A DNA stretch of 64,000 nucleotides, taken from positions 62,001-126,000 of the forward strand of contig NZ_BJDY01000002.1 of NCBI RefSeq assembly GCF_005405385.1, given 5' to 3'. Of this stretch, positions 33,866 through 60,284 are shown one piece after another. The position numbers and the translations under genes are program-made. Every line of letters starts with the position of its first letter. Position 1 is the first letter of the stretch. The notes under the pieces were generated by a model. It was not told the DNA's origin. It made no database searches and worked only from the letters and a program-made list of their open reading frames with translations. The stretch is from Lactiplantibacillus mudanjiangensis. Lineage in GTDB: Bacteria; Bacillota; Bacilli; Lactobacillales; Lactobacillaceae.

Positions 33866-34358
33866 ACTAAGATCAAAACTAGTCATACTTGCCACCTGCC
33901 GTTCGCCCACATTGAGCCGGAACGCTGTGGGCGGACCGGTTCAGCCAAAAAGCGGTCTGAACCGTCGTTTTGAACCACTAAACCCGTGTTTCAAAAACGC
34001 CAGGCTCTAAGCGATAAATCGCTAAGAGCCTCCCACGGCTGGGCTCAATGTGAGCTCACTCTCGGTTATGATAGTGATTGCTAATTAACTAGCATCCGCA
34101 TGATAACCGGAGTCAGCCAGTGATGGCGCCGGCCGTGAAAATATCGTTAGTCTGGGTGTTTTCCCCGGACTTTACGATATGGACGACTTTTAAGACTAGC
34201 GATTTAGGCTAGGCTTAAAAGCGAGGTGGAAGCCCGTATTTTGGCTGAAACCGGTCCCCACAGCCGGTAAAATCACTGGCTGGCGTAGGTGACAAATTTA
34301 ATCCAACTTAAGTCAATGTTGGTAAGGCTTCGACCAATACATTTAGCTTTCAACCTTT
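33866..34358 (-). mobile_element. Long structured intergenic repeat element, copy A (inverted, two-arm)
   Basis: About 490 non-coding bases that are the reverse complement of copies C and D. In minus orientation it begins AAAGGTTGAAAGC and contains two arms whose cores face each other (33925-33957 and 34232-34263), plus the palindrome TTAGCGATTTATCGCTTAG. A perfect 9-base direct repeat AGAAAGTTA flanks it (33857-33865 and 34359-34367). It lacks about 33 bases near its minus-strand 3' end compared with D, so the exact right border is ambiguous. No reading frame with a ribosome site was seen. Confidence 0.8.
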
Positions 34359-34372
34359 AGAAAGTTACACTA

Positions 34373-34417
34373 AAATAGGGCCTTTCAAGATTGAGTTAGT
34401 CTTGAAAGGCCCTATTT
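34373..34417. terminator. Strong bidirectional hairpin
   Basis: Perfect 18-base arms AAATAGGGCCTTTCAAGA / TCTTGAAAGGCCCTATTT with a 9-base loop; serves the minus-strand HAD gene and possibly plus-strand readthrough from thiN. Confidence 0.85.
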
Positions 34418-34425
34418 GTGAACAC

Positions 34426-35064
34426 TTAAATGGTTAATAAATCAGCGGGAGTTACTAAGATATAGGTGGGGGATTCGGCTTTTACCGAGTCTGGATCGGC
34501 CGCACCCCACATGGCACCAGCTGTGGCAATGCCGGCATTCGTGCCCATTTGGATATCATATTTGGCGTCACCAATCATGAGACTCGTTTTGGGGTCAAGG
34601 TCGAAACGAGTTAGCAAATCAAGAATTCCATCAGGTGCCGGCTTATAATGGTCCACAAGATCAGAACCACTAACGGCTTCGAAAAATGACCCTAATTCAA
34701 GTTGATCAAGATTGCGTTTTAGCGCCACCGAATGTTTACTAGACACCACAAAGAGGCGATTGCCACGTGTTTTCAATTGTGCAAGAGTGGTCGCCATTCC
34801 GTTAAACGGGGCCATGCCTTGTTGTTCGGCTTGCTGATATTGAGCACGGAAGACAGTATATAAGGTTTCTAAGGCTGATTCATCCAAAGGTTCTTGTGCC
34901 ATTTTAGCAAAGGAAACTTCAATTGGAATACCCATATAACTAATGACAGCTTCAGGAGTTGGCACAGTTAGTCCTTGAAGCTTGTAAGCTTGTTGGGTTG
35001 CGATGACAGCGACATGGCGCGTGTCAGCTAGGGTACTGTCAAAATCAAAGAGAAAATTCTGCAT
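34426..35064 (-). CDS. HAD-superfamily hydrolase (phosphoglycolate phosphatase/PpaX-like)
   Basis: 212 residues. Nucleophile motif FDFDSTLADT at the N-terminus, Ser/Thr motif VVSSKHS, Lys in DHYKPAPDGI, and MIGDAKYDIQMGTNAG as the acidic motif IV; helical cap between residues 20 and 85. Substrate cannot be read from sequence: phosphoglycolate, pyrophosphate or a sugar phosphate are all possible. Own promoter and terminator. Confidence 0.9.
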   Translation of the reverse strand: MQNFLFDFDSTLADTRHVAVIATQQAYKLQGLTVPTPEAVISYMGIPIEVSFAKMAQEPLDESALETLYTVFRAQYQQAEQQGMAPFNGMATTLAQLKTRGNRLFVVSSKHSVALKRNLDQLELGSFFEAVSGSDLVDHYKPAPDGILDLLTRFDLDPKTSLMIGDAKYDIQMGTNAGIATAGAMWGAADPDSVKAESPTYILVTPADLLTI

Positions 35065-35096
35065 GTGTTCACCTCGGGTTAGATTAAATGGGTATT

Positions 35097-35126
35097 TTTA
35101 TAAAGATTATAAAAAAGTGTTGTCAA
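35097..35126 (-). promoter_or_regulatory. Promoter of the HAD gene
   Basis: Minus strand: perfect TTGACA (35126-35121), 18 bases, TATAAA (35102-35097). Confidence 0.7.
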
Positions 35127-35146
35127 AAACTGATTTTTGGGTAACA

Positions 35147-35185
35147 AAAAACGTCACTCGCAAAAAAAATTGCGGTGGCGTTTTG
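35147..35185 (-). terminator. Terminator after rpmB
   Basis: ACGCCACCGCAA pairs with TTGCGAGTGACGT (one bulge) followed by T6 on the minus strand. Confidence 0.8.
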
Positions 35186-35190
35186 TTGCG

Positions 35191-35376
35191 CTAAACGCGC
35201 GTTACTTTACCTGATTTCAAAGTCCGAGCTGAAACCCAAACCTTTTTTGGTTTACCATCAACTAAAATGCGAACTTTTTGCAAGTTAGCTTTCCAGCTGC
35301 GGCGGCTGTGGTTTAAGGCGTGAGAACGCGTGTTACCAAAATGCGTCCGCTTGCCTGTAACGAAGTCTTTTGCCAT
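35191..35376 (-). CDS. rpmB: 50S ribosomal protein L28
   Basis: 61 residues from the ATG at 35376 behind GAAGGAGG, N-terminus [20 protein letters not shown]. Standard short bacterial L28. It is divergently placed from the Asp23-fakA unit, as in other Firmicutes. Confidence 0.97.
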
Positions 35377-35613
35377 GTTGATCTGCCTCCTTCGGTAATC
35401 ATTGATAAAAGGTCGTTGCTTTATCATTCACTAGAATAATTTATCATAGTTTAATACAGGTTGCAATACATTTCTATCAAGTAATTTTACTTTACTGCTA
35501 AATTCCGCTAGTTCAGGCTTTCAAACGGGCGGTCGCTTAATTTTTCTTTCGCTAGACGTTGTGCTATGATAAACTATCGTAAATGAACGCGTTAAAATAA
35601 GGAGGCTATTTTC

Positions 35614-35976
35614 ATGGCTGTCAAAATCAAAACGCAATTTGGAACCATTGATATTGATAATGATGTCATTGCTACGGTCGTTGGTGGCGCGGCAACTGAT
35701 AATTATGGGGTTGTCGGCATGGCTAGTCGGAATCAAATTCGCGATAATTTAAATGAAATTTTACGCCGCGAAAACTTTGCACGGGGCGTGGTCGTACGTC
35801 AAGAAGATAATGGCGTTTCTATTGAAGTTAACATTATCGTGAGCTACGGCACTAAAGTATCAGAAGTTTCCCGCAACGTGCAGGCGAAGGTTAAATACAA
35901 CTTACAAAATATGCTTGGCGTTACGGCCAATGCAGTCAATGTCATTGTCCAAGGTGTTCGGGTAATGGCTGACTAA
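35614..35976 (+). CDS. Asp23/Gls24 family protein (YloU-type)
   Basis: 120 residues of the DUF322 family with little beyond the core; no acidic tail, unlike its paralogue at 9946. It always precedes fakA in Firmicutes, and a role in lipid or envelope homeostasis is inferred from that. Start ATG behind AAGGAGG; an extended -10 (TGCTATGAT near 35562-35570) lies upstream. Confidence 0.92.
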   Translation: MAVKIKTQFGTIDIDNDVIATVVGGAATDNYGVVGMASRNQIRDNLNEILRRENFARGVVVRQEDNGVSIEVNIIVSYGTKVSEVSRNVQAKVKYNLQNMLGVTANAVNVIVQGVRVMAD

Positions 35977-36005
35977 GCAAAATTGGTGTGAGCCAAGGAG
36001 GAATT

Positions 36006-37721
36006 TTGAAATTGAAAATCACCAAAATAACGAATCTTGAATTCGGTAAGATGGTCCAAGCGGCTTCCCAAAAGCTCAATCAACGGGCCGAATTTATTAA
36101 TTCTTTGAATGTTTTCCCAGTTCCCGATGGTGACACAGGGACTAATATGAGTTTATCAATGGCCAGTGGGGCCAAGTATGAACGTGAAGCAACGAGCACG
36201 CAAGTTGGCGACTTAGCCTCTGCATTAGCTAAAGGGTTGTTGATGGGCGCGCGGGGTAATTCCGGCGTTATTTTATCGCAAATTTTTCGGGGCTTTTCGA
36301 AAAACGTTGCGGGTAAAGAAAGCTTAGATGCAAACGATTTAGCTGAAGCTTTAGCTGCTGGGGCTCAGACAGCCTATAAGGCGGTTATGAAGCCAACTGA
36401 AGGAACTATCCTAACGGTCATTCGAAAAGCCGCTGGTGCGGGTAAGGAAGCCGTTAAAACGACTGATGACATTTGTGAAGTCATGGATGCCGTCGTTGTC
36501 GCTGCTGAAGCTGCTTTGAAATCAACCCCTGACTTGTTACCAGTTTTGAAGCAAGTTGGTGTTGTTGATTCTGGTGGTCAAGGGTTAACTTTCGTCTTAG
36601 AAGCGTTTAGTGACTCATTGAGTGGCAAAATTGATGAATCAGAAGACTACAAACCAGACGATGCTGAAATGGATTCAATGATCGATGCTGCACATCATCA
36701 AAGTGTCCAAGGTAAGCTTGATCCAAATGATATCAAGTATGGTTACTGTACTGAAATCATGGTTCGGATCGGTGACGGTAAGTTAGTCGATCAAGACTTT
36801 GACTATGATACGTTCTATAATTATTTGGCTGGACTCGGTGATTCGCTCTTAGTCATCAATGATGATGAAATCGTGAAAGTCCATGTTCATACGGAACATC
36901 CTGGTGATGTCATGACTTGGGGCCAACGTTTCGGGGCTTTAATTAAGGTTAAAGTGGATAATATGCGTCTTCAACAAGAAACGATCATGGAACATGATCA
37001 AGCTGAAGATACACCATTAGCACCTGCTGTCCCAGAAGTTGCCAATGGACCAAAACCAGATATGCACGGTTATGCGATTATTTCCGTGGCTTCTGGTGAT
37101 GGAATTGCGACGTTGTTCAAGGGTTTGGGTGTCACTGACATGATTGCCGGTGGTCAAACCATGAACCCAAGTACGGCTGATATTGTCAAAGCCGTTAATG
37201 CTAGTGGCGCTAAGCAAGCCTTAGTTTTACCAAATAACAAGAATATCTTCTTGGCCGCTGAACAAGCTGCCGAAGTGGCCGATATTCCTGTTAAGATCAT
37301 TCACAGCAAGACGATTTCACAAGGGATGACGGCCATGCTAGCCTTCAATCCGGAAGCTGATCTTGATGAAAATCAATCTGAAATGGAAGACGTTTTAGAT
37401 ACGGTCATTAGTGGTCAAGTGACCCATGCCGTTCGTGACACGACCATTGATGGGATGGAAATTCATAAAGATGATTACATGGGCTTAGTTGACGGTAAGA
37501 TTGTCGTGACCGATGTTGATCGGCAAACGGCGACTGTCGAGATGGTTAAGCGCATGCTTGATGAAGACAGCGAACTCGTCACTATTTTCTATGGCGCCGA
37601 TGCGACTAAAGCTGATGCTGATCAGTTAGCAGACGCTGTCAGTGCTTTAGATGATGAACTCGAAATTGAAATTCATGAAGGGGACCAACCAGTCTACCCA
37701 TTCTTGATTTCAGTTGAATAG
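36006..37721 (+). CDS. fakA: Fatty acid kinase ATP-binding subunit (DhaL/DegV-like)
   Basis: With a FakB protein it phosphorylates exogenous fatty acids, feeding PlsX/PlsY. TTG at 36006 lies 4 bases after AAGGAGGA and matches family N-termini (KITNLEFGKMVQAASQ); GTG at 35988 would lie before the ribosome site. About 571 residues: DhaL kinase domain 1-200 with PDGDTGTNMSLSM and ARGNSGVILSQIFRG, linker, then the DAK-like C-terminal domain. Confidence 0.95.
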   Translation: MKLKITKITNLEFGKMVQAASQKLNQRAEFINSLNVFPVPDGDTGTNMSLSMASGAKYEREATSTQVGDLASALAKGLLMGARGNSGVILSQIFRGFSKNVAGKESLDANDLAEALAAGAQTAYKAVMKPTEGTILTVIRKAAGAGKEAVKTTDDICEVMDAVVVAAEAALKSTPDLLPVLKQVGVVDSGGQGLTFVLEAFSDSLSGKIDESEDYKPDDAEMDSMIDAAHHQSVQGKLDPNDIKYGYCTEIMVRIGDGKLVDQDFDYDTFYNYLAGLGDSLLVINDDEIVKVHVHTEHPGDVMTWGQRFGALIKVKVDNMRLQQETIMEHDQAEDTPLAPAVPEVANGPKPDMHGYAIISVASGDGIATLFKGLGVTDMIAGGQTMNPSTADIVKAVNASGAKQALVLPNNKNIFLAAEQAAEVADIPVKIIHSKTISQGMTAMLAFNPEADLDENQSEMEDVLDTVISGQVTHAVRDTTIDGMEIHKDDYMGLVDGKIVVTDVDRQTATVEMVKRMLDEDSELVTIFYGADATKADADQLADAVSALDDELEIEIHEGDQPVYPFLISVE

Positions 37722-37740
37722 GCTGATAATAGCTCTTACT

Positions 37741-37774
37741 AAAGGGATTGACGTTGATTGGCGTTAATCCCTTT
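37741..37774 (+). terminator. Hairpin after fakA
   Basis: AAAGGGATTGACG / CGTTAATCCCTTT, 8-base loop, but only a weak T-tract follows. Confidence 0.55.
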
Positions 37775-37833
37775 AATGTTAGCTAAAGGCGCGGTTAACA
37801 TCCCATATATGGGCGGCTTTTGGTATAATAACT

Positions 37834-38170
37834 AAAGGTTGACAGATAATAATGGCGATAGAAATATTGGCTGGCGTAGGTTAGTTCGTGGATGCTGATT
37901 AAGTTTGTGATCACTAATATAACCGAGAGTGCCTCCACATTGGGCCCAGCCGTAGGAATCTCTTAGCGATTTATCGCTTAGAGATTGGTGCTTTTGAAAC
38001 ACGGGTTTAGTGGTTCAAAACGACGGTCCAGACCGCTTTTTGGCTGGACCGGTCCGCCCACCGCGTTCCGGCTCAAGGTGGGCGAACGGCAGGTGGCAAG
38101 TCGCGCTATTTTTAATCAGTAGATGCCCGTCATATTAGCGATTGTTGCGAAAAAGTAACGGTCAACCTTT
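37834..38170 (+). mobile_element. Long structured intergenic repeat element, copy B (single-arm)
   Basis: About 337 bases, same family as the copies at 33866, 50230 and 59766 but carrying only the right-hand arm; some 200 bases of the left arm are absent. Termini are AAAGGTTGAC (37834-37843) and GTCAACCTTT (38161-38170), a perfect 10-base inverted repeat. Flanks (TTTGGTATAATAA, CTTTGGCAATATAA) look like a decayed duplication. It separates fakA from recG. Confidence 0.8.
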
Positions 38171-38230
38171 GGCAATATAAATAGATAATGGCAACACTAG
38201 CAAATAAATGAGGAAAGGGGTTGTTGGCAA

Positions 38231-40270
38231 ATGGAAACCAGTTTAACGGCACCAGTTGGCACCATGACTGGTGTGGGTCCCGCCCGACAAAAAGCGCTCG
38301 CGGAACTAGGTATTAATACGATTGCGGATTTGTTGACCTATTACCCCTTTCGGTATGATGATTTACAAGTCAAAGATGTTAACGAGATTGCTGATCAGGA
38401 AAAAGTCACGTTAAAAGGTACTGTGGCGTCAGAACCGGTCTTAGCGCGATTTGGTCGCAAAAAGAATCGGTTAAACTTTCGATTATTGATTGATCATGAT
38501 GTCTATATGGTGACATTCTTCAATCAACCTTATTTGATGAAACAACTAGAAACTGGTCAAGCGCTGGCTGTTTATGGGAAGTGGGATGCTAAGCGGAGTA
38601 GCCTCACTGGTATGAAAATTATCAATCCAAATAACGCGGAGCAGGCGTTTGGGTCGATCTATCCAGCTAGTAAATCGATTCGACAAGGGACGATTCAAAA
38701 GTTGATTAAACAGGCTTTTGAGACGTATGGTGATCAGTTAGTCGATATAGTTCCGGCACCCTTAGCCGAAAAATATCGCTTACTGCCACGTCGGCAAATG
38801 ATTCATGATATGCATTTTCCAGCCAGTCAAGACGCGTCAACTGCCGCTCGTCGATCCGCGACATATGAAGAATTCTTGCTGTTTCAAATGCAGATGCAGA
38901 CGTTGAAACAAGCCGATCGCACGACTGATGGGATTACAATTCATTACGACAATGCTAAGCTTAAAGCGTTTATTAAAACTTTGCCATTTGAATTAACCGG
39001 CGCGCAAAAACGAGTGGTTAATGAAATTTGTTTGGATTTGAAGGCCCCTCAACATATGAATCGGTTATTGCAAGGGGATGTTGGTTCCGGGAAGACGATC
39101 GTGGCAGCCATTGTGATGTACGCGGCGATCACCGCGGGCTATCAAGCAGCACTAATGGCGCCGACCGAAATTTTAGCGGAACAACATGCCAATAATTTGG
39201 CTCAAGTTTTTGCGGATACCGATGTTAATGTTGCCTTATTAACTGGGTCAACGAAACCAGCGGCTCGCAAAGCGTTATTGGCGGCATTAGCGGCTGGTGA
39301 GATCGACTTATTAATTGGGACGCATGCACTCATCCAAGACGGAGTTGAGTACGCAAATTTGGGATTAGTGATTACCGATGAACAACATCGTTTTGGGGTG
39401 AATCAGCGGGCTGAATTCCGGCAAAAAGGCCATCAACCCGATGCTTTGGCGATGACGGCAACGCCAATTCCACGAACACTGGCAATCACGGCTTATGGTG
39501 AAATGGACGTCTCAGAAATCGATGAACTGCCAGCTGGTCGTCAGCCGATTCAAACGACGTGGGTTCGTAGTAATCAAGCCAACTCGGCGTTGAGTTTTGT
39601 CCGCAAACGGTTGGCAGCTGGGGAACAGACCTATGTCGTGACCCCTTTGATTGAAGAGTCAGAAACATTGGATGTTAAAAATGCTGAAGCATTGTCGGCT
39701 AACTTACAAGATTACTTTGCGCCAGATTATAAAGTTGGCCTATTACATGGCCGGATGAAACCTGACGAAAAAGAAGCTGTGATGGCGGCCTTTAAAGCCA
39801 ATGAAATTCAATTGTTAGTCTCCACGACGGTTATTGAAGTGGGGGTCGACGTGAAGAATGCGACCGTCATGATGATCTATGATGCTGATCGCTTCGGCTT
39901 GGCTCAGCTGCATCAATTGCGAGGCCGGGTTGGTCGAGGCTCACAAGCGTCTTATTGTATTCTCGTTGCTGATCCTAAGAACGAACAAGGGGTCCAGCGA
40001 ATGCAAATTATGACAGAAACGACTAATGGTTTTGTTTTAGCCCAAAAAGATTTAGAATTACGAGGGTCCGGCGAAGTGCTGGGCGTCAAACAATCAGGGC
40101 TACCATCGTTTAAAGTTGGGGATCCAATTGCGGATCTAAACGTCTTACAAGTGGCCCAACAAGATGCGCACGCGATTGTGGCGCAACCAGATTGGCAACA
40201 GCAACCGGCTAACCGCGCGTTAGCCCAAATCTTAAAAACGAAATTAGCAGCGGTCGGCACGCTCGACTAA
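38231..40270 (+). CDS. recG: ATP-dependent DNA helicase RecG
   Basis: Branch-migration helicase for fork reversal and recombination. 679 residues: wedge/OB domain (about 50-150), Walker A GDVGSGKTIVAAIVMY, ITDEQHRFGV box, QLRGRVGRGSQASYC motif VI. Starts an operon with plsX and acpP. Confidence 0.97.
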   Translation: METSLTAPVGTMTGVGPARQKALAELGINTIADLLTYYPFRYDDLQVKDVNEIADQEKVTLKGTVASEPVLARFGRKKNRLNFRLLIDHDVYMVTFFNQPYLMKQLETGQALAVYGKWDAKRSSLTGMKIINPNNAEQAFGSIYPASKSIRQGTIQKLIKQAFETYGDQLVDIVPAPLAEKYRLLPRRQMIHDMHFPASQDASTAARRSATYEEFLLFQMQMQTLKQADRTTDGITIHYDNAKLKAFIKTLPFELTGAQKRVVNEICLDLKAPQHMNRLLQGDVGSGKTIVAAIVMYAAITAGYQAALMAPTEILAEQHANNLAQVFADTDVNVALLTGSTKPAARKALLAALAAGEIDLLIGTHALIQDGVEYANLGLVITDEQHRFGVNQRAEFRQKGHQPDALAMTATPIPRTLAITAYGEMDVSEIDELPAGRQPIQTTWVRSNQANSALSFVRKRLAAGEQTYVVTPLIEESETLDVKNAEALSANLQDYFAPDYKVGLLHGRMKPDEKEAVMAAFKANEIQLLVSTTVIEVGVDVKNATVMMIYDADRFGLAQLHQLRGRVGRGSQASYCILVADPKNEQGVQRMQIMTETTNGFVLAQKDLELRGSGEVLGVKQSGLPSFKVGDPIADLNVLQVAQQDAHAIVAQPDWQQQPANRALAQILKTKLAAVGTLD

Positions 40271-40301
40271 CGCTGTCAGTGAGAGGAAATGGTGAACAAC
40301 A

Positions 40302-41348
40302 ATGGTTAAAATTGCAATTGATGCCATGGGTGGCGACTATGCGCCAGCCGCAGTCATTGAAGGGGTCGAACAAGCCCGGGATTTATTTGAAGATACGATC
40401 TTTTTACTATATGGACAACGTGAGGTGATTAATCAGTACTTGAAAAAACGTGATCGGATTCAAGTGATTAACGCGGACGAAGTCATCACGATGGAAGATG
40501 AACCGGTTCGGGCCGTTCGTCGTAAGAAGCACTCATCAATCGTCATGGCTGCTCAAGCCGTTAAAGATGGCCAGGCCGATGCGTTCTTCTCAGCTGGAAA
40601 TTCCGGTGCCGTGTTAGCTGCGGGGCTATTCATCGTTGGCCGAATCAAAGGGATTGATCGTCCCGGTTTGGTCACGGCTTTACCAGTCGTTCGTAATGAA
40701 AATCAATCTAACTTTGTCATGATGGACATCGGTGCCAATGCCGATAGTAAACCGTTAAATCTGCAACAATATGCCGTTTTGGGGACGTATTATGCTGAAC
40801 GGATGATGTACGCTAAGCAACCACGTGTTGCCTTACTCAATAATGGGACTGAAGATGATAAAGGGAACAAGGTTCACAAGGCTGCCTTTGAACTCTTACA
40901 ACAAACGAGTGGGATTAATTTTATTGGGAACGTGGAATCACGCGACTTGCTCAAAGGCGTGGCTGATGTGGTCGTTACCGATGGTTTCACCGGGAACGCG
41001 GTATTGAAGAGTATTGAAGGAACGGCTCGTGCGATGCTTGGGCTGGTCAAAGATGCTGTTTATAATACCGGTGTTGGTGGCAAATTGGGGGGCTTGTTAC
41101 TCAAAAATGGGTTCAACCAAATCCGCTCACAAATGGATTACTCTCAATATGGTGGTGCCGTCTTACTCGGCTTAAAAGCTCCAGTTGTCAAGACTCACGG
41201 CTCCAGTAAAGCCCCAACCATTGTGAATACGATTCGGCAAATTCGTCAAATGGTTAATACGGATATTGTTCCCGGTGTTGAAGATTACTTCGCTAACCAA
41301 CAAGCTAATCAGGCGGCAAGTGTAGACAAGCCGACCGAAAACGATTAG
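40302..41348 (+). CDS. plsX: Phosphate acyltransferase PlsX
   Basis: Converts acyl-ACP to acyl-phosphate for the first step of phospholipid synthesis. 348 residues with MGGDYAPAAVIEGV and FSAGNSGAVLAAGLFIVGR. The fapR repressor gene that stands between recG and plsX in Bacillus is absent. Confidence 0.97.
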   Translation: MVKIAIDAMGGDYAPAAVIEGVEQARDLFEDTIFLLYGQREVINQYLKKRDRIQVINADEVITMEDEPVRAVRRKKHSSIVMAAQAVKDGQADAFFSAGNSGAVLAAGLFIVGRIKGIDRPGLVTALPVVRNENQSNFVMMDIGANADSKPLNLQQYAVLGTYYAERMMYAKQPRVALLNNGTEDDKGNKVHKAAFELLQQTSGINFIGNVESRDLLKGVADVVVTDGFTGNAVLKSIEGTARAMLGLVKDAVYNTGVGGKLGGLLLKNGFNQIRSQMDYSQYGGAVLLGLKAPVVKTHGSSKAPTIVNTIRQIRQMVNTDIVPGVEDYFANQQANQAASVDKPTEND

Positions 41349-41386
41349 AATACTCTAGTGAATTTAAGTTAGCGAGGGATAAGTTA

Positions 41387-41632: not shown

Positions 41633-41652
41633 TTAGGATTTAGTCCTAAATC

Positions 41653-50184: not shown

Positions 50185-50218
50185 GCGAAGCAGCGATGTT
50201 TTGTTTAAGAGCTTTTTT
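50171..50218 (+). terminator. Terminator overlapping the khpA 3' end
   Basis: AAAAAACTCTT pairs with AAGAGCTTTTTT (one bulge) around a 20-base loop; the khpA stop codon lies in the 5' half. Confidence 0.7.
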
Positions 50219-50229
50219 ATTACCATAAC

Positions 50230-50771
50230 TAAAGGTTGAAAATAATTATGGCGATAGAAGCCTTACTGGTATTGGTCTGAGTGATGCTAAATTGGTCACC
50301 TACGTCAGTCAGCGATTCTGCCGGCGGTGGGGACCGGTTCCAGCCAAAGGACGGGCTTCCACCTCGCTTTTGAGCCTAGCCAAAACCACTAGTCTCAAAA
50401 GTCGTCTACATCGTAAAGTCCGGCAAAAGCACCCGGACTAACGGTGTCGTCACGGCCAGCGCCATCACTGGCTGACTTCGGTTATATCGCAGATGTTAAA
50501 TAGTTTTGTGATCACGAAGATAACCGAGAGTGAGCGCACATTGAGCCCAGCCATGGGAGTCTCTTAGCGATTTATCGCTTAGAGCGTGGCGTTTTTGAAA
50601 CGCGGGTTAGGCGGTTCAAAACGATGGTTCAGACCGCACTTTGGCTGAACCGGTCCACCCACAGGGTTCCGGCTCAATGTGGGCGAACGGTAGGTGGCAA
50701 GTATGACTAGTCTTGGCCGTTAAATACTTGTCATATCAACGATTATTGTTAAAAAGTATCTTTCAACCTTT
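50230..50771 (+). mobile_element. Long structured intergenic repeat element, copy C (two-arm)
   Basis: About 542 non-coding bases. Ends are TAAAGGTTGAAAA and TTTCAACCTTT. The two inverted arms have cores at 50325-50356 and 50631-50674. The palindrome TTAGCGATTTATCGCTTAG is at about 50563-50581. Perfect direct repeats ATTACCATAAC flank it at 50219-50229 and 50772-50782, the clearest target-site duplication of the family. The element sits between khpA and rimM and thus splits a conserved operon. Confidence 0.88.
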
Positions 50772-50811
50772 ATTACCATAACAATTTATCAATTTTTGAG
50801 GAGGCTAATAT

Positions 50812-52548: not shown

Positions 52549-52599
52549 TTTAGATCATTTAAGCTTAATTGCGTAACTGTCGTTGCGAATTAGGTTAGG

Positions 52600-52635
52600 C
52601 CGTCTTAACTGTTTAACAGTTAGGGCGGTTTTTTT
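52600..52635 (+). terminator. Terminator after rplS
   Basis: CCGTCTTAACTG / CAGTTAGGGCGG with a 5-base loop and T7. Confidence 0.9.
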
Positions 52636-52766
52636 GTTAGTTAATAACCAGGTTTAATGGAACATTGCCTAAATAGCACTAAACGTTACACGCGTATAAT
52701 GATGGCGTTGAAGATCGTGTTCAATGGTTAAATCAGGTATACTTACTAGGTAAAGGGGGATTTACT

Positions 52767-53633: not shown

Positions 53634-53652
53634 GCATATTAAGATAAAACGA

Positions 53653-53690
53653 TAGAGAACCGATGCTTTGAGGCATGTGGTTCTTTTTTT
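53653..53690 (+). terminator. Terminator after the SPFH gene
   Basis: AGAACC..GATGC / GCATGTGGTTCT and T7. Confidence 0.85.
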
Positions 53691-53708
53691 GATAGTTATT
53701 AGTCCCAC

Positions 53709-53727
53709 TGTGTTACAATGTAACACA
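53709..53727 (+). promoter_or_regulatory. Operator/-10 of the toxin-antitoxin operon
   Basis: Perfect inverted repeat TGTGTTACA-A-TGTAACACA. A TACAAT hexamer (53714-53719) lies inside, so a bound antitoxin would cover the -10. AAGGAGG follows immediately. Confidence 0.75.
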
Positions 53728-53741
53728 AGGAGGCGGTACTG

Positions 53742-53975
53742 ATGGCAACGATTACGGTACGTGTTAATGATGACGAAAAAGCTTGGCTACAATATATGGC
53801 CGAGTTTTATGGCATTTCACTCTCAGCTTTATTGGTAAAATATTCGATTAAAGACTTAGAAGATGAGTACGATCGGCAAACGGCACAAGTTGCGCATAAG
53901 AAGTGGCTTGATGACAATCAGCGGACTGTCTCAATGGGCGAAATCATGCGTGAATTTAGCAGTGGAGACGACTGA
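53742..53975 (+). CDS. RelB/DinJ-like antitoxin (ribbon-helix-helix, DUF6290-type)
   Basis: 77 residues. N-terminal ribbon ATITVRVNDDEKAWLQYMAE and helix with GISLSALLVKYSIKDLEDEY give the RHH DNA-binding dimer. The rest is charged and likely wraps the toxin (QRTVSMGEIMREFSSGDD). One-base overlap with the toxin gene and a palindromic operator at the promoter are typical of autoregulated type II systems. Confidence 0.88.
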   Translation: MATITVRVNDDEKAWLQYMAEFYGISLSALLVKYSIKDLEDEYDRQTAQVAHKKWLDDNQRTVSMGEIMREFSSGDD

Positions 53976-54250
53976 TGGTTAAGCATTATCGTTTAGTTTT
54001 TACGCGACTAGCACAAAAACAATTAAGAAAATTAGATAAATATCAGGCACGGTTAATCGTTGAGTGGTTATATGCTAATATTGACGGTACAGATGATCCT
54101 TATCAAAGTGGTAAAGGGTTGACTGCCAATCGCAGTGGCCAATGGCGTTATCGGATTGGCCAATATCGTGTCATTTGTGAAATTAACGATGAACAGTTGG
54201 TTATTACTGCCATTAATAGTGGGCATCGTCGTCGAATTTATGATGAATAA
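53975..54250 (+). CDS. RelE/ParE-family toxin
   Basis: 91 residues. Core features of the fold: FTRLAQKQLRKLDKYQARLI, then KGLTANRSGQWRYRIGQYRV, then ITAINSGHRRRIYDE with conserved basic and aromatic residues. Such proteins cut mRNA at the ribosome; ParE-type gyrase poisoning cannot be excluded. Follows the antitoxin with a TGATG junction. Confidence 0.9.
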   Translation: MVKHYRLVFTRLAQKQLRKLDKYQARLIVEWLYANIDGTDDPYQSGKGLTANRSGQWRYRIGQYRVICEINDEQLVITAINSGHRRRIYDE

Positions 54251-54298
54251 ACCAATATTTTTGATTGTATTTGATTTAATGACAATTTAGGCATACAA

Positions 54299-54330
54299 AT
54301 AGGGAGTCGCTCATGATGGCGACTCCCTAT
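54299..54330. terminator. Hairpin between convergent units
   Basis: Perfect ATAGGGAGTCGC / GCGACTCCCTAT with an 8-base loop; the T-tracts on both sides are weak. Confidence 0.7.
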
Positions 54331-54348
54331 TGCTGTATTAATGATAAA

Positions 54349-54957
54349 TTAAAATTTGCATGTTGAAACTAAAACCCATTCGCCATATTTGTACTTATAG
54401 GTATACATTTTAGTTTCAGTCATTTTGTCCCATTCGTGGTGAGTAGGGTAGACGTGTGAGCCGTAATCAAAGATAATTTTTGATGTTTGATTAGGTGAAT
54501 AGTCTGACAAGGTACAGTGTGTCTCCGTATCGTAGAAAGTATTGCCATTGCCTAAGTTTTTATTTTCAACGCGATAGCCGTGAAAACTCTTGTAAAGTGG
54601 TGTCTGGACCTTATAGATACCCATTTTGAACCAACTGGCATCGTTATATTTTTTGTTGACCATGTAGGTATAATGGCCACCATTGGTATTATACTTTCCT
54701 GATTGCAGTACCCAGCTGTAGTTAACGTCCCAATGGCTTAATTTATAGTGAGAGCCTGCTTTTACTTTATAGGTGGCAACTTTTTTGTCCCATGGCTTAT
54801 TACTAAGTTTATAAACAGTGACATCCTTTTTCAATGTTACCCAATGGCTTGTTTTCCAGTAGGATGCGAGTGCATGAGCTGGTTGTGGTTTTTGAAATGC
54901 AATAAATAATGACAGTGTTGTGATAATAATCGTTGCGAAGTTAATCATCTTTTTCAT
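54349..54957 (-). CDS. Small secreted protein
   Basis: 202 residues. Signal peptide MKKMINFATIIITTLSLFIA with cleavage near PQPAHA. The mature part is Tyr/Lys/Trp-rich (SYWKTSHWVTLKKDVTVYKL, then HYKLSHWDVNYSWVLQSGKY), a beta-rich pattern like lactobacillus SH3-type exoproteins but without clear repeats. Two Cys are in the last 60 residues. No function known. AGGGGA precedes the ATG. Confidence 0.8.
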   Translation of the reverse strand: MKKMINFATIIITTLSLFIAFQKPQPAHALASYWKTSHWVTLKKDVTVYKLSNKPWDKKVATYKVKAGSHYKLSHWDVNYSWVLQSGKYNTNGGHYTYMVNKKYNDASWFKMGIYKVQTPLYKSFHGYRVENKNLGNGNTFYDTETHCTLSDYSPNQTSKIIFDYGSHVYPTHHEWDKMTETKMYTYKYKYGEWVLVSTCKF

Positions 54958-55040
54958 TTAATAGATTCCCCTAAAATAGTTTGTTATATAACAATCCCCG
55001 TAACGTATTCCTTTTATATTAAAACGGCCTCCATTTATAG

Positions 55041-55100
55041 TGTCAATATTCATTATATCGATGATAAATTCAAGCGTCTATAATATTAGTAATATTGACA
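55041..55100 (-). promoter_or_regulatory. Promoter region with separated inverted repeat
   Basis: Perfect arms TGTCAATATT (55041-55050) and AATATTGACA (55091-55100) 40 bases apart. Read on the minus strand the first contains TTGACA, 17 bases from TTTAAT (55023-55018), the likely promoter of the secreted-protein gene. Confidence 0.45.
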
Positions 55101-55113
55101 TTAGCAATCACAA

Positions 55114-55155
55114 ACAAAAAAGCGAGCCCAGAAGGTTTCACTTCCAAGCTCGCTT
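55114..55155 (-). terminator. Terminator of pepD
   Basis: AAGCGAGC / GCTCGCTT with extended inner pairing (GGAAG/CTTCT) and T6 on the minus strand. Confidence 0.88.
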
Positions 55156-55161
55156 GATGAG

Positions 55162-56601
55162 TTAAAGATTCAAATCCGTATTATAGTTCAAGGGTGACAA
55201 ATCCGTACTAGTCGTAATCAATTCAGCGGTCAATTGTTGCATCGCCGTCAACGCAATCTCAGCGGCCTTAGCGTTAGCTTCAGTTAACGTGGTGGTCAAC
55301 TGGTCACCAGTCATCTTAGCCACGGCTGCATCGGTTTCAATCAAATGGTGTCCCAATTGAATGGCCAACTCTTTTTGCACATCGGCTAAGCGACCATGTA
55401 GTTGATGATAGTGGGCATCGACCAAAACGCCGACCAATTTAAAGATCCAGTAGGCCGATGTTGGATCGTACTTCTCAGTGGCAACTTGATAGGCGGCCGG
55501 GGTATCATCTACGTTGGCAAAGAAAGGCACGTAAACACTTTCGGCGGAAACGCCCATCGCTAACCAGTGAATCCCTTGTCGTCCGACGGGCATGTCTGGA
55601 CGAAGTTGCAAGACATGTGATTCTTGCGTCTTTGCCAAACTGATCGGTCGGTAACGATGCTTGTCAGCATCACTGCCACTGCCAACGGGATCAAATGGTG
55701 TGCCTTCATAATGGGATGCCAAGTAATGTTGAACTTCATCCACATGAATCAAACGGTTTGCACGTTGGATAAACGGCAAGTCGAATGATTCAGGATCTTG
55801 GTCGACTTCTGGCGTAAAGTAACGTTGGCCGTCCCAAACACGGGGTGTGTTGTAATGTTGATCGGATAGATCACGTGTGCCAAAGACATCTCGGAAATTA
55901 AAGCCGTTTGAGGTATCAGCTAAATCATGGTCCACGACAAAGTCCCGAATGCCACTGGCAAACAAGTAATTTTCGTGATCGGCGATGTCAATTTCTTGAA
56001 TCGCGAGTTGATTGGCAACAACGGCGTAAGCATCATCAGGAATCCGTTGTGCGACCCAGTAATGGCCGGCACCAGTTTCCATGTACCAAACTTCATCATC
56101 GTCGCTAAAAAGAATCCCATTCGTTTCGTAAGTCCCTTTAGTCTCAACGATCTGGCCTAACCGTTCAACGCCTTCACGGGCTGAACGAATGTAGGGGAGC
56201 ACGACAGTAACCATTGCTTCTTCACCGATCCCATCTTGTACATAAGGATCAGCGGCGAGGACCCGGGCGTTGCAATAAGCACTTTCAGTCGCACTCATGG
56301 CAACGCCATATTCGTTAATGCCATCTTCTTCAAACAGCCCATATTTGGCAGTCCATTCAGGGGTGGCGGTATATTTGGCGCGAATCTTAGGTAAAGTCAT
56401 GGTAAATGGGTGATCAGCGTCTGATGAAGTAAATAGTTGTGGTTCGTCGAATTCTTGATGCGGATGGACCACAAATTTCTTGGCCCACGCCGCTCGCGAA
56501 TCTTCATTACGACCAATCAGGGTCGAACCATCGGCCGTGGCGTTTTTACCGACTAAAATACTGGTACAAGCAGAGTAAGGATTAAATTGATGCGTGAGCA
56601 T
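55162..56601 (-). CDS. pepD: C69-family dipeptidase
   Basis: Cleaves broad-specificity dipeptides in the cytosol. ATG at 56601 chosen (AGAAGG 7-12 bases before), giving MLTHQFNPYSACTSILVGKN; the frame is open 9 codons further. 479 residues. The N-terminal-nucleophile-type Cys is Cys12, followed by GSTLIGRNED. Lactobacilli carry several PepD paralogues. Divergent from yitT, with a shared operator-like palindrome between. Confidence 0.93.
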   Translation of the reverse strand: MLTHQFNPYSACTSILVGKNATADGSTLIGRNEDSRAAWAKKFVVHPHQEFDEPQLFTSSDADHPFTMTLPKIRAKYTATPEWTAKYGLFEEDGINEYGVAMSATESAYCNARVLAADPYVQDGIGEEAMVTVVLPYIRSAREGVERLGQIVETKGTYETNGILFSDDDEVWYMETGAGHYWVAQRIPDDAYAVVANQLAIQEIDIADHENYLFASGIRDFVVDHDLADTSNGFNFRDVFGTRDLSDQHYNTPRVWDGQRYFTPEVDQDPESFDLPFIQRANRLIHVDEVQHYLASHYEGTPFDPVGSGSDADKHRYRPISLAKTQESHVLQLRPDMPVGRQGIHWLAMGVSAESVYVPFFANVDDTPAAYQVATEKYDPTSAYWIFKLVGVLVDAHYHQLHGRLADVQKELAIQLGHHLIETDAAVAKMTGDQLTTTLTEANAKAAEIALTAMQQLTAELITTSTDLSPLNYNTDLNL

Positions 56602-56654
56602 AGGGTGCCTTCTTTCTATAAAAATCACTTTCTTGCTTTAATTTTAGCATTTTG

Positions 56655-56671
56655 TCACCTAAAAAAGGTGA
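56655..56671. promoter_or_regulatory. Palindrome in the divergent pepD/yitT promoter region
   Basis: TCACCT-AAAAA-AGGTGA, between a plus-strand TATAAT (56680-56685) and a minus-strand TAAAAT (56646-56641). Possible shared operator. Confidence 0.5.
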
Positions 56672-56716
56672 TTTTCGCTTATAATAATAGCATTCTGACT
56701 ATATGGAGGTCGCAAA

Positions 56717-57607
56717 ATGCATCTTTCAAATCCGCGCCTTATTTTTTTGTGGCAATTATTAATTATGTTATTATCCGCGGTCATTTCGGCAGTTGCTTTA
56801 AATGAATTCTTGATTCCGGCGAATACGTTTAGTGGTGGAGTTAATGGGATTGCTCAGCTGCTTTATACCGCGGGGAAACCGTTGGGCTTATCGATTAATA
56901 CCGGTTATTATATTTTGCTATTCAATATTCCGATTGCGTTACTCGGCTGGTTTAAACTCGGTCATTGGTTTACCATCATGAGTTTTATCACAGCGTTTTT
57001 AACGTCATTTGCGATGGTTGTCATTCCGGTCGTCAATGTGGCGCATAACCCATTATTAGGGGCGTTATTTGGCGGAATTTTAACCGGGGTTGGTATCGGG
57101 ATTACTATGCGGTACGGCTTTTCAACGGGTGGCTTTGATATTATTGTCTTGGTACTAGAACGGATGACTGGTCGTACGGTGGGCAGTTGGATGTTTTTAA
57201 TCAACTTTATTATTATTGCGATGTCTGGGTTGTTATTTAGCTGGGAAAACGCCTTGTTTACGATTATTTCCATCTACGCGTCGACACGGATGATTGATGT
57301 CATTCATACACGTCATCAAAAACTCACGGCAATTATTGTGACATCCCAAGCCGAATTCGTGGCTAAAGCGATTCAACAAGCAATTTTGCGAGGTGTGACG
57401 GTTATTCCGTCACACGGTGCCTATTCTGGGCAAGCTAACTCCACGTTGATGGTCGTTTTGAGTCGTTACGAGTTGTATACGTTACAAACCACGGTAAATC
57501 AAACGGATGAACACGCGTTTATTAATATTTTAAATACAGTTGATACATCAGGCTTATTTATGAATGAGCAGGAACAGGATCAACAGCGACAAAAGTTACG
57601 GGGATAA
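56717..57607 (+). CDS. YitT-family membrane protein
   Basis: 296 residues: five to six predicted membrane helices in 1-200 (DUF161 type, with the FLIPANTFSGGVNGIAQLL loop), then a C-terminal DUF2179 domain (about 205-285) with RGVTVIPSHGAYSG. Family function is unsettled. TGGAGG stands before the ATG. The next gene follows after 22 bases. Confidence 0.93.
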   Translation: MHLSNPRLIFLWQLLIMLLSAVISAVALNEFLIPANTFSGGVNGIAQLLYTAGKPLGLSINTGYYILLFNIPIALLGWFKLGHWFTIMSFITAFLTSFAMVVIPVVNVAHNPLLGALFGGILTGVGIGITMRYGFSTGGFDIIVLVLERMTGRTVGSWMFLINFIIIAMSGLLFSWENALFTIISIYASTRMIDVIHTRHQKLTAIIVTSQAEFVAKAIQQAILRGVTVIPSHGAYSGQANSTLMVVLSRYELYTLQTTVNQTDEHAFINILNTVDTSGLFMNEQEQDQQRQKLRG

Positions 57608-57629
57608 TAACTTAAAAGGGGAACAGATA

Positions 57630-58055
57630 ATGAAAAAAGTGGGACAGCAATTATTAGCAGCAAGTTTAGTTTTAGTAGGGGGCATCGCTTGGGGACAGCA
57701 GGCCGTTCAAGCACGTACAAGTTATACATCGCCAAAGTCTTTCCGGCATACTTGGTATCACTATGTTGGACATGGTAAGTATGACAAAATGACATTTAGT
57801 AAACATGCCTATAGTTCCGATGAGTATGCTGGTGGCGAACATTATCACGAGCATCGCAAGTTTAAGTTATTTGGGCCAAGTAAAAGCGGCTACTGGAGTT
57901 TGTATGGGATTGATCAGACCGCTGGGGCCGGTAATAACTTTAAAGTGACGACTAGAACGTTTGGTGGTAAACGACATGCCATTTTGAATAATTATTATGG
58001 CTACTATACGTCAGATATTACCCACTACTATCGCTTCAAGACGCATCACCAATAA
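57630..58055 (+). CDS. Small secreted protein downstream of yitT
   Basis: Start at the ATG at 57630. 141 residues: signal peptide MKKVGQQLLAASLVLVGGIA then WGQQAVQA; mature part rich in Tyr, His and Gly (HTWYHYVGHGKYDKMTF, EYAGGEHYHEHRKF). No function known; probably co-transcribed with yitT. Confidence 0.78.
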   Translation: MKKVGQQLLAASLVLVGGIAWGQQAVQARTSYTSPKSFRHTWYHYVGHGKYDKMTFSKHAYSSDEYAGGEHYHEHRKFKLFGPSKSGYWSLYGIDQTAGAGNNFKVTTRTFGGKRHAILNNYYGYYTSDITHYYRFKTHHQ

Positions 58056-58088
58056 ACCGATTTCATTCACAATCGTAAGCACAAGTAG

Positions 58089-58117
58089 TTGTCGAATTAG
58101 ATAAATTAAGGTATCAT
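58089..58117 (+). promoter_or_regulatory. Promoter of the tautomerase gene
   Basis: TTGTCG at 58089-58094, 17 bases, TATCAT at 58112-58117. Confidence 0.6.
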
Positions 58118-58155
58118 TAGATTCTACGAAGATAAACTAGACAGGAGTGACAACG

Positions 58156-58350
58156 ATGCCAATCGTACACATTGAATTAATCGAAGGCCGTTCACAAGCC
58201 CAATTAAAGGACTTAGTTAAAGACGTGACTGACGCCGTTAGCAAAAATACCGGTGCGCCAGCAGAACATATTCACGTGATTTTAAGTGAAATGCAAAAAA
58301 ACCGTTACAGTGTTGGCGGTGTGTTAAAGAGCGACGAAGAAGCTAAGTAA
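58156..58350 (+). CDS. 4-oxalocrotonate tautomerase family protein
   Basis: The ATG at 58156 is chosen because the family needs Pro as residue 2 (catalytic Pro1 after Met removal): [20 protein letters not shown]. 64 residues. AGGAG is 9 bases upstream. Substrate unknown. Own promoter and terminator. Confidence 0.92.
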
Positions 58351-58365
58351 TTAGTAATCGTTGTG

Positions 58366-58395
58366 AACCGGCCGTTATTGTGGCCGGTTTTTTTG
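58366..58395 (+). terminator. Terminator after the tautomerase gene
   Basis: AACCGGCC / GGCCGGTT, 8-base loop, T7. Confidence 0.92.
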
Positions 58396-58432
58396 CAAGA
58401 TGGCACGTTGTCAAAAAAAGTGAGGTTAGATT

Positions 58433-59758
58433 GTGAACGAACAACTTACAGCGGCTGATTTAAATGCCCAACATCATCTCACCGTGGGTGGGGTCGATAC
58501 GTTGGCGTTAGCCCAAAAATATCAAACACCATTATATGTCTATGATACTGGTGCGATTCGGCAAGAAATTCACGCGTTTAAGGCGGTTTTCGAGGCCAAT
58601 GACGTTAATTATCAAATTAGTTATGCCAGCAAAGCTTTTGCGGCAGTCGCGATGTATCAATTGGCCGCCCAAGAAGGCATTCATTGCGATGTCGTGTCTG
58701 GCGGGGAAATGTATACCGCAAAACAGGCTGGCTTTCCAATGGAAAAGTTGTCCTTTCATGGGAACAACAAATCATTAGCTGAATTAACCGAGGCGCTTGA
58801 TTATGGCGTGGGCTGTATCATGGTGGATAATTTTTATGAACTACAGCAATTAGCCAACTTGACGGCCCAACGGGAACAACACGTGACGGTCATGTTACGA
58901 ATTGCCCCCGGAATTTCAGCGCATACCCATGATTACATCTCAACCGGACAAGAAGACTCCAAGTTTGGTTTTGATTTGAATAGTGGTCAAGCCGATGAAG
59001 CTGTCAAATTAGCACAAGCGGCACCTTATTTAGATTTAGTCGGCATTCATTGCCATATTGGCTCACAGATTTTTGAACTCGATGGATTTAAAATGATCGT
59101 GGATAAGCTAGTGACGTTATTTGCCCGTTGGCAGACGGAACTTGATTTTTATCCAAAAATCATCAATGTTGGTGGCGGCTTTGGCGTGAAGTATACGTCT
59201 GAAGATCAACCGTTATTACCGACTGAATTTGTCGATGCGATTGTTAAAGAAACCATTGCGCAGACGCAAGCTCATCACGTGCCAATGCTTGAGATTTGGA
59301 TTGAACCGGGGCGCTCATTAGTGGCGACTGCTGGGATGACGCTCTATACCTTAGGGGCCTCCAAAGATATTCCGGGTATTCGGAAATATTTAGCGGTTGA
59401 CGGTGGGATGGGTGATAACATTCGTCCGGCACTATATGAAGCTAAGTATGAAGCGGTACTCGCTAAAGATCCCTCGCAACCAAGTGATGAAGTGGTCTCC
59501 ATTGCCGGAAAATACTGTGAATCCGGAGATATGCTGATTTGGGATCAAGCCTTGCCAGCAACCCAACCAGGTGATGTGTTGGCGGTGTTGGATACGGGAG
59601 CCTATGGGTATTCGATGGCGAATAATTATAACCGTAATCCGCGGCCAGCAGTCGTTTTTTGCGAAAATGGTCACGATCAATTAGTTGTCCAACGTGAAAC
59701 CTTTGCCGATTTAACGCGGTTAGATGTGCCATTAACGGCGACTGAACCAATTAAATAA
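58433..59758 (+). CDS. lysA: Diaminopimelate decarboxylase
   Basis: Final step to L-lysine. 441 residues from a GTG. PLP Lys in SYASKAFAAVAMYQLA; GIHCHIGSQIFE, NVGGGFGVKY, EPGRSLVATAGM and CESGD motifs. Monocistronic; its stop codon lies inside the direct repeat that flanks repeat copy D. Confidence 0.96.
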   Translation: MNEQLTAADLNAQHHLTVGGVDTLALAQKYQTPLYVYDTGAIRQEIHAFKAVFEANDVNYQISYASKAFAAVAMYQLAAQEGIHCDVVSGGEMYTAKQAGFPMEKLSFHGNNKSLAELTEALDYGVGCIMVDNFYELQQLANLTAQREQHVTVMLRIAPGISAHTHDYISTGQEDSKFGFDLNSGQADEAVKLAQAAPYLDLVGIHCHIGSQIFELDGFKMIVDKLVTLFARWQTELDFYPKIINVGGGFGVKYTSEDQPLLPTEFVDAIVKETIAQTQAHHVPMLEIWIEPGRSLVATAGMTLYTLGASKDIPGIRKYLAVDGGMGDNIRPALYEAKYEAVLAKDPSQPSDEVVSIAGKYCESGDMLIWDQALPATQPGDVLAVLDTGAYGYSMANNYNRNPRPAVVFCENGHDQLVVQRETFADLTRLDVPLTATEPIK

Positions 59759-59765
59759 ACGTTAA

Positions 59766-60284
59766 GGTCAAGATTGAAAGATCATTATGGTGATAAAAAA
59801 CATATCATTACTGGCTTGAGCTGTGCTAAATTGGTCACCTACGCCAACCAGCGATTCTGCCGGCTGTGGGGACCGGTTCCAGCCAAAAAGCGGGCTTCCA
59901 CCTCGCTTTTAAGCCTAGCCTAAACCGCTAGTCTCAAAAGTCGTCCATATCGTAAAGTCCGGGGAAAACACCCAGACTAACGATATTTTCACGGCCGGCG
60001 CCATCACTGGCTGACTCCGGTTAGTTCGCTATGTCAATTTGGTAATCACTAATATAATCAAGAGTGAGTTCAGCCGTGGAAGGCTTTTAGCGATTTATCG
60101 CTTAGAGCCTGGCGCTTTTGAAACGCGAGTTGGGCGGCTCAAAACGACGGTTCAGACCGCTTTTTGGCTGGAACGGTCTGCCCACAGTGTTCCGGCTCAG
60201 GGTGGGCGAACGACAAGTGACAAGTATGACTAGTTTTGATCGGTGAAGACTTGCCATATCGGCGAAAAAGTAATAGTCAACTTT
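59766..60284 (+). mobile_element. Long structured intergenic repeat element, copy D (two-arm)
   Basis: About 519 non-coding bases with inverted arms (cores 59865-59899 and 60155-60186, near-identical over about 30 bases when one is reverse-complemented) and the common palindrome. Perfect 10-base direct repeats TAAACGTTAA flank it at 59756-59765 and 60285-60294; the left one includes the lysA stop. A 64-codon frame inside (60039-60233) has no ribosome site and is not conserved in the other copies. Confidence 0.87.

Follow-up and report, generated by a model that had tools for sequence, protein, structure and literature searches.

Four related elements between genes

The window analysed here is a stretch of 64,000 nucleotides from Lactiplantibacillus mudanjiangensis (NCBI RefSeq assembly GCF_005405385.1, contig NZ_BJDY01000002.1, positions 62,001 to 126,000 of the forward strand). 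Four long non-coding elements, copies A to D, lie between its genes: copy B upstream of a recG-like gene, copy C between a khpA-like gene and rimM, and copy D between convergent genes (gene names around the copies, including the rnc-like and smc-like genes mentioned below, were assigned by eye). The original prediction, made from the sequence of this DNA, had described four related copies without a plausible coding frame. They are indeed homologous, with 74-87% pairwise identity over aligned stretches of 228-507 bp, copy A being inverted relative to the others, and no open reading frame (ORF) of at least 80 aa is present in any of the four. The coordinates given at that time were correct to within a few bases, as judged from terminal inverted repeats (TIRs) and target-site duplications (TSDs). 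Based on our analysis, the copies are probably old, high-copy, non-autonomous transposons resembling miniature inverted-repeat transposable elements (MITEs), which would be mobilised by an IS4-type transposase and carry a covarying double module that may act at the DNA level.

A full element contains two convergent copies of a module of ca. 190 nt. Copies A, C and D carry both modules and copy B carries one; according to cmsearch, B is an internal-deletion derivative that has kept the right-hand module and lost the first. The features are listed below, with module scores from cmsearch R1; both duplications of A and of D were read from the sequence.

33867-34360, minus strand: copy A; exact 14/14 TIR at the high-coordinate end, low end decayed to CTAA with no TIR match
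33859-33866, no strand: putative left target duplication of A, AAAGTTAA, 7/8 identical to the right one
34361-34368, no strand: putative right target duplication of A, AAAGTTAC
34347-34360, minus strand: TIR of A, CTAAAGGTTGAAAG on the minus strand
34130-34267, minus strand: module core 1 of A, 109.6 bits, E 8.2e-29
33923-34039, plus strand: module core 2 of A, convergent to core 1, 76.8 bits, E 1.4e-19
37832-38172, plus strand: copy B, upstream of the recG-like gene, no clear TSD
37947-38065, minus strand: module core 2 of B, 67.7 bits, E 4.8e-17
50229-50773, plus strand: copy C, full length of 545 bp, between the khpA-like gene and rimM, TIRs 13/14 and 13/14
50221-50228, no strand: left TSD of C, TACCATAA, 8/8
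50774-50781, no strand: right TSD of C, TACCATAA, 8/8
50321-50458, plus strand: module core 1 of C, 104.8 bits, E 1.8e-27
50550-50666, minus strand: module core 2 of C, 59.2 bits, E 1.2e-14
59766-60285, plus strand: copy D, between convergent genes; left TIR degenerate (11/14), no right TIR at 11/14 or better
59757-59765, no strand: left TSD of D, AAACGTTAA
60286-60294, no strand: right TSD of D, AAACGTTAA
59860-59997, plus strand: module core 1 of D, 110.7 bits, E 4e-29
60073-60189, minus strand: module core 2 of D, 54.8 bits, E 2.1e-13

Terminal repeats, target duplications and empty sites

A common TIR of 14 bp, CTAAAGGTTGAAAG, emerged from an alignment of 30 copies with their flanks, not all in the same orientation, and the TSDs of the family are 7-9 bp long. 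We screened 71 loci of the same genome for both features (30 blast loci, locus L111 and 40 stretches around TIR matches). Paired TIRs (at least 10/14 each) together with a direct repeat of at least 7 bp with no more than one mismatch were found for 42 distinct elements, 18 of which had perfect TSDs of 8-9 bp and 12 perfect TSDs of 7 bp. When the reversed TIR was used as a control on the same 71 loci, two elements were obtained, none with a perfect TSD. Element lengths ranged from 193 to 556 bp with a full length of ca. 535-550 bp. The 23 listed eight-base TSDs, five of them from other genomes and some trimmed from 9 bp, have a composition close to TTANNTAA. A generic search for TIRs and TSDs at 20 congener loci and four rimM loci returned chance pairs only.

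We compared the insertion site of copy C, the khpA-rimM gap, in 13 named Lactiplantibacillus loci, inspected by eye. In seven of them (L031, L032, L033, L036, L037, L040 and L041) the gap is short and uninterrupted (62-91 bp), in four it holds a different element (L034, L043, and L038 and L039, which share one), and in L035 and L042 it measures 131 and 186 bp and no module could be recognised in it. The element in L034 has the same type of TIR and another interior. Because four relatives carry different elements at the same place, this site is one that has been hit independently several times. The gap (window positions 50185-50811) follows a terminator-like hairpin and is an insertion hot spot, with at least three different elements besides copy C. 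A second site was seen in L. daoliensis (L033), where a TIR-bearing element with a duplicated AAAGTAA lies between the rnc-like and smc-like genes. Here, blast placed the two sides within ca. 65 bp of each other in L031, L032, L034, L035, L036, L039, L040, L041, L043 and the window; in L042 ca. 250 bp of different sequence intervene, and in L037 and L038 a similar element is partly present. At the site of copy D, gene order differs or contigs end in all 13 relatives. The nearest named relatives by RimM are L. dongliensis and L. songbeiensis, with 89% protein identity.

Copy number and gene context

The genome containing the window comprises 3.29 Mb in 13 contigs. A blastn search with copy D, which had been proposed as a check, revealed a family far larger than four, with at least 40 long copies in this genome: the best 40 of 221 candidates were all long copies, D among them, and the other 39 were 80-87% identical to it. 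The TIR pattern AAAGGTTGAAAG (one mismatch allowed) gave 183 matches compared with 24 for the reversed control, from which we estimate ca. 160 TIR ends or ca. 80 elements, which together would occupy roughly 1% of the chromosome. The resulting mean spacing would be ca. 40 kb, and the four elements found within 26 kb of the window represent a local cluster. Using a covariance model of the module, all 150 scored sequences out of 765 candidates matched, i.e. at least 150 modules are present. Given the 80-87% identity to copy D among the other 39 copies and the presence of a transposase relic only (see below), the family looks old in this genome.

For 51 elements both neighbouring genes were called with a simple ORF finder, and the following are raw counts without a genome-wide expectation. 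Neighbours were convergent in 23 cases, tandem in 23 and divergent in 5, and no element was intragenic, so that 69 3' ends and 33 5' ends flank the elements. Distances to the 3' ends were at most 14 bp in 30 of 69 cases and 49-79 bp in 28. Both target choice and purifying selection can shape such a location at gene ends.

A covarying folded module

A conserved block of ca. 75 nt is common to the window elements and elements of eight other genomes of the genus. The predicted fold of the entire module comprises a long closing stem (P1), two hairpins (P2 and P3), a further stem (P4) and a small fifth helix. For the underlying unit alignment, 28 of 236 matches were first removed based on score, length or the presence of N, followed by 19 identical ones. 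An end pattern was matched by 131 of the remaining 189 units. Half of the training rows (20) were selected among these by visual inspection and the other 20 were positioned manually. The resulting 40 sequences were aligned with MAFFT and the structure was written by us from the same sequences. In this training set, pairing is seen in 83.4% of cells and changes on both sides in 33 of 40 pairs, and none of 500 shuffles reached the score, while sliding the partners by one or more positions reduced pairing to 48% or less. Since the structure had been chosen from the training sequences, the model was tested on units from four other genera. There, 19 units from 13 loci (one of them, from L181, was also in the training set) showed 89.8% pairing cells and again 33 of 40 covarying pairs, with at most 43% pairing when slid. 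The strong covariation in both sets bears out the proposal that the elements are structured.

The fifth helix varies from GGAC:GTCC to GGCG:CGCC, GGGG:CCCC or CGAC:GTCG. It reaches at least 4 bp in 98 of 112 units from outside the genome (shuffle maximum 87) and in 91 of 116 units from within it (shuffle maximum 80), the mean run in the latter set being 3.71 compared with a shuffle maximum of 3.64. Both hairpins contain a conserved C·T mismatch one or two model pairs below the loop, which was present in P2 of 108 and in P3 of 102 of the 112 outside units. In the own-genome set, where the alignment is laid out differently, P2 is split (57 CT and 55 CG of 116) and P3 carries the mismatch in 87 of 116. 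Further, a TCG linker is kept in 90 of the 112 outside units. The first module in this species (50321-50458, 59860-59997 and 34130-34267) has three consecutive non-pairing positions in P2, and the same mispairing is found in the other left-hand copies listed for the species. At L043:9569-9736 the third hairpin of the module shows a tandem expansion (CCAATGACCAATGACCAATGACCAA). Neighbouring units less than 800 bp apart in the compiled list were convergent in 32 of 35 cases and direct in 3.

Distribution across the order

The covariance model detected the module in 19 of 21 genomes of the genus (E ≤0.001), with at least 150 matches in six. Best E-values were below 1e-25 in 12 genomes and between 1.6e-10 and 5.6e-7 in the other seven, which may therefore hold degenerate or distant forms. 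Within the family, 36 of 161 genomes and 10 of 40 genera matched (E ≤1e-5; best 21 or fewer candidates per genome), including 15 genomes in five genera with a best E below 1e-20. An order-wide draw yielded matches in 5 of 148 genomes, two of which (G420 and G330) lie outside the family and matched once each. Relatives appear to be high-copy in a second family too, as G420 contains 39 blast matches to its own unit; G330, from a third family, has, besides its single match to the model, one blast match of 38 bp in a different place. By eye, locus L295 (G420:C1:48300-58500) holds two full units and a partial one in the same orientation near a peptide-transporter-like operon.

At gathering score, no Rfam family matches copies A to D or the elements in L034, L043 and L039, and no credible weak match was found in copy C or in loci L120, L117, L236, L138, L033 and L001. 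Parts of the G330 and G420 loci match SSRC8_2 on the opposite strand at 35.8-38.1 bits (gathering score 72), the best score of 38.1 bits being that of L294. Plasmid and phage collections searched in distant mode gave no match to copy C. We found no published description of the family in the full-text literature searched, most subscription journals and bioRxiv lying outside it. The earlier remark that no described family of this form was known in lactobacilli agrees with both Rfam at gathering score and this literature. The window itself contains two Rfam matches at gathering score, a Ribosomal protein L21 leader (RF00559) at 7046-7118 and a tRNA at 3676-3749.

An IS4-type element as putative mover

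The exact 14-mer TIR occurs in 12 of 21 genomes of the genus, compared with 0 of 21 for the reversed control. In the family it was found in 44 of 301 genomes, with at least two copies in 31 and one copy in 13; single matches mean little since the reversed control was also found once each in 9 of 301. An autonomous insertion sequence (IS) in a congener (locus L179, genome G004) is 1565 bp long, carries both TIRs at 14/14 and encodes a transposase of ca. 450 aa that matches the IS4-family model NF049925 of NCBIfam at 481.6 bits (cut-off 250) as well as Pfam DDE_5 and DDE_Tnp_1. TIRs of 13-14 of 14 are present at both ends of five of six congener IS copies and missing from the sixth, more diverged one. 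Two of the five TIR-bearing copies are flanked by a 7-bp TSD, and the reading frame is broken in at least two of the five. In the window's genome, the sole trace of the putative mover that was found is a decayed IS4-type transposase relic at G000:C2:537758-538063 (L142, L204 and L210), beside an exact TIR; of the NF049925-type transposase only two fragments were seen there. Homologues of the transposase, including the annotated ISTeha4, are encoded on lactobacillus plasmids and are up to 97% identical in L. plantarum NZ_CP035114.

Because the elements and the IS share their ends, we infer that an IS4-type transposase moves the elements. Non-autonomous transposons had been one of several options in the original prediction, and this option is directly supported by the TIRs and TSDs (42 elements compared with 2 for the reversed control), the short gaps at 7 of 13 copy C sites and the TIR-matched autonomous IS. 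A match to a named repeat family, or fixed positions without empty sites, had been put forward as evidence against a novel mobile family; the window copies matched no Rfam family at gathering score, copy C had no plasmid or phage match, and empty sites were seen at the site of copy C, one of the four. In genomes G004, G007 and G072 the distance between an exact TIR and the end of its contig is in many cases 13-77 bases. Near-identical recent copies are expected to break assemblies at their TIRs, and the IS and element system may thus be active there.

Mode of action of the module

We used mismatches at paired columns to compare possible modes of action. In units from outside the genome, G·T was found 138 and A·C 163 times (of 4339), and in own-genome units 176 and 147 times (of 4373), after removal of identical rows (1 of 112 and 1 of 116). 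As a yardstick, the acceptor and T stems of 29 tRNAs of the same genome (1 of 30 was removed by a sanity filter) showed 16 G·T and 3 A·C of 348. ARAGORN brackets gave 59 and 0 of 904, but the program may bracket allowed pairs alone and the fixed-position count is therefore preferred. Since G·T and A·C are about equally frequent in the module, a dedicated one-strand RNA is not favoured. Such strand-blind pairing fits a DNA fold, use in either orientation or template-switch correction, while the conserved C·T mismatches argue against pure template-switch correction. A DNA-level or orientation-independent fold consequently fits better than a dedicated one-strand RNA. In case of the structured RNAs and protein-binding sites proposed earlier, the structure has held up, with 33 of 40 pairs covarying as in a structured RNA; the above counts, in which G·U is not tolerated more than A·C, argue against a simple one-strand RNA.

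It is nonetheless conceivable, if rather unlikely, that the module is a functional RNA, either as read-through 3' untranslated region or as small RNA (sRNA), with a role in stability, RNase III processing or regulation, and that mobility merely spreads it. Strong covariation and the location at gene 3' ends would both be accounted for, and owing to the convergent layout a transcript arriving from either side would first meet a module in the same orientation. The partial SSRC8_2 matches of the relatives in two other families, all below 72 bits, also point in this direction, but they lie on the strand opposite to the module, and G·T does not clearly outnumber A·C, unlike in tRNA stems (16 versus 3).

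Several observations weigh against the elements being IS4-mobilised transposons with a folded DNA module. Modules are numerous, and the exact TIR is absent, in L. fabifermentans (G005) and in four genomes from a different genus (g25), and none of 13 module pairs in G005 has a TIR-like end within 220 bp. IS4-driven mobility therefore does not explain all carriers; these genomes either have other movers or have lost recognisable ends through decay. The IS copies L179, L202 and L203 have no clear TSD, and no intact transposase of the IS4 type (NF049925) was found in the window's genome. When the interiors of the four copies were compared with the IS using blastn, only the terminal bases aligned plausibly and interior matches had chance E-values, so that an origin by simple deletion is not shown. 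As for the module, alignments A2-A4, including that of the other genera, were fitted to the model and thus lean towards its structure, and the mean run of the fifth helix in units from outside the genome (4.03) is below the shuffle maximum (4.09). Neighbouring units in G420 are direct, in the same orientation, as judged by eye, and the distinction between DNA and RNA is based on a single statistic, for which a small set of tRNA stems served as yardstick.

The carriers without TIRs, including all 13 G005 pairs, are what would be expected if the module were itself selfish and REP-like, with an enzyme of its own (e.g. HUH/Y1), and had merely been captured by the IS4 TIR elements. Opposite-orientation dimers, gene 3' ends and high copy number are shared with such repeats as well (cf. 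PMC3733652). We consider this improbable because the presence of Y1_Tnp does not follow that of the module: G018 and G019 lack the module in spite of 3 and 7 Y1 matches, respectively, while no Y1_Tnp match was found in G001, G004, G007, G009, G011 and G020, which have from 68 to at least 150 module matches. Translations inspected by eye showed no obvious mobile gene beside the two loci outside the family, and module pairs without TIRs gave no duplication signal. Direct repeats at 21 module pairs had a mean length of 6.6 bp compared with 6.1 bp when shuffled and reached at least 9 bp in 2 of 21 compared with 3% in the control. This set is mixed, with 13 pairs from G005 (L224 without a right flank) and 8 from the TIR-bearing G001, G002, G003 and G007. 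Among the latter, L134 has a complete TIR pair and an 8-bp duplication, L130 and L131 have weak or mixed ends on both sides and L129 on one side.

Template-switch correction is known for quasi-palindromes, and a purely mutational covariation, in which template switching corrects long imperfect palindromes without selection, would match both the absence of strand bias among mismatches and the architecture of the element as one large inverted repeat with nested hairpins; it is very unlikely, as correction should erase the C·T mismatches that persist outside the genome (P2 108/112, P3 102/112), the TCG linker is kept in 90 of 112 units and the left P2 stays imperfect in this species' listed left-hand modules.

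We thus favour MITE-like elements with a module acting as DNA, which could work as follows. An IS4-type transposase would recognise the 14-bp TIR in trans and insert the element into an AT-rich site (roughly TTANNTAA), duplicating ca. 8 bp, mostly just after gene ends. The cargo would be two convergent, conserved and covarying multi-arm modules and not a shrunken IS. When single-stranded, the module may extrude or fold and be recognised by a protein, or it may serve, at the 3' ends of genes, as a hairpin array that works in either orientation; this action would cause the element to be tolerated and kept. We tentatively regard action at the DNA level as the module's most likely mode, and thereby as what lets the element be tolerated and kept, with somewhat less than even confidence. 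While mobilisation resembles that of common MITEs, the covarying double module is unusual. More speculatively, there might exist an order-wide folded DNA module with five helices and two conserved mismatch hairpins, selected as a DNA structure and riding on different transposon chassis, with more than 100 copies in many lactobacilli, relatives in other Lactobacillales families and one fragment listed in Rfam as a streptococcal sRNA.

A repeat for which we found no description is estimated to make up ca. 1% of the chromosome and occurs next to gene ends across a genus with uses in food, and its cargo covaries very strongly without having an Rfam entry of its own. This raises the question why the cargo of a transposon stays paired without a difference between strands. 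A DNA fold should have a protein that recognises it, whereas in case of an RNA many mRNAs would have a 3' structure in common. Our results further suggest that part of SSRC8, a named sRNA of streptococci, belongs to a dispersed repeat.

Comparison with known systems

Repetitive extragenic palindromic sequences (REPs) with REP-associated tyrosine transposases (RAYTs) are GTAG- and CGTC-tagged single hairpins of 20-40 bp, according to PMC3733652. REPs and bacterial interspersed mosaic elements (BIMEs) share with our elements palindromic sequence, opposite-orientation dimers, a location mostly at gene 3' ends and conserved unpaired bases, but here the units are multi-arm, ca. 190 nt long and in many cases inside a TIR and TSD, and the occurrence of the Y1 transposase does not follow that of the module. 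In many units the third hairpin is followed by CGTC, which is part of a helix and gives way to GCCCC in other units. A REP/RAYT mechanism was rejected based on the unit size of ca. 190 nt and the lack of correspondence between Y1 (HUH) transposases and the module across 21 genomes.

SSRC8 is a Northern-positive RNA of S. pyogenes whose listed homology in S. dysgalactiae is limited to positions 149-210 (PMC3675131). This is the same stretch as that matched in our relatives: positions 145-210 of 281 of SSRC8_2 (RF02616, Streptococcus sRNA 8) correspond to the two central hairpins of the relatives in two other families. The scores are below the gathering score of 72 and on the opposite strand, and in PMC3675131 SSRC8 is described as an sRNA and not as a mobile repeat. 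SSRC8_2 had no match in the window at gathering score and none in copy C at E up to 5.

The closest likeness is to MITEs of IS4-family transposases (NF049925 transpos_IS4_4). The elements are short (193-556 bp), the window copies carry no transposase gene, and TIRs with TSDs of 7-9 bp, ends shared with an autonomous IS, an intergenic location and high copy number are all found. In case of a MITE formed as an internal deletion derivative of its IS, the interior should resemble the latter; no such similarity was seen and this origin was rejected. What sets the elements apart from IS4 MITEs is therefore an interior not derived from the IS, composed of two convergent covarying multi-arm modules and represented by at least 150 module matches in each of six genomes of the genus.

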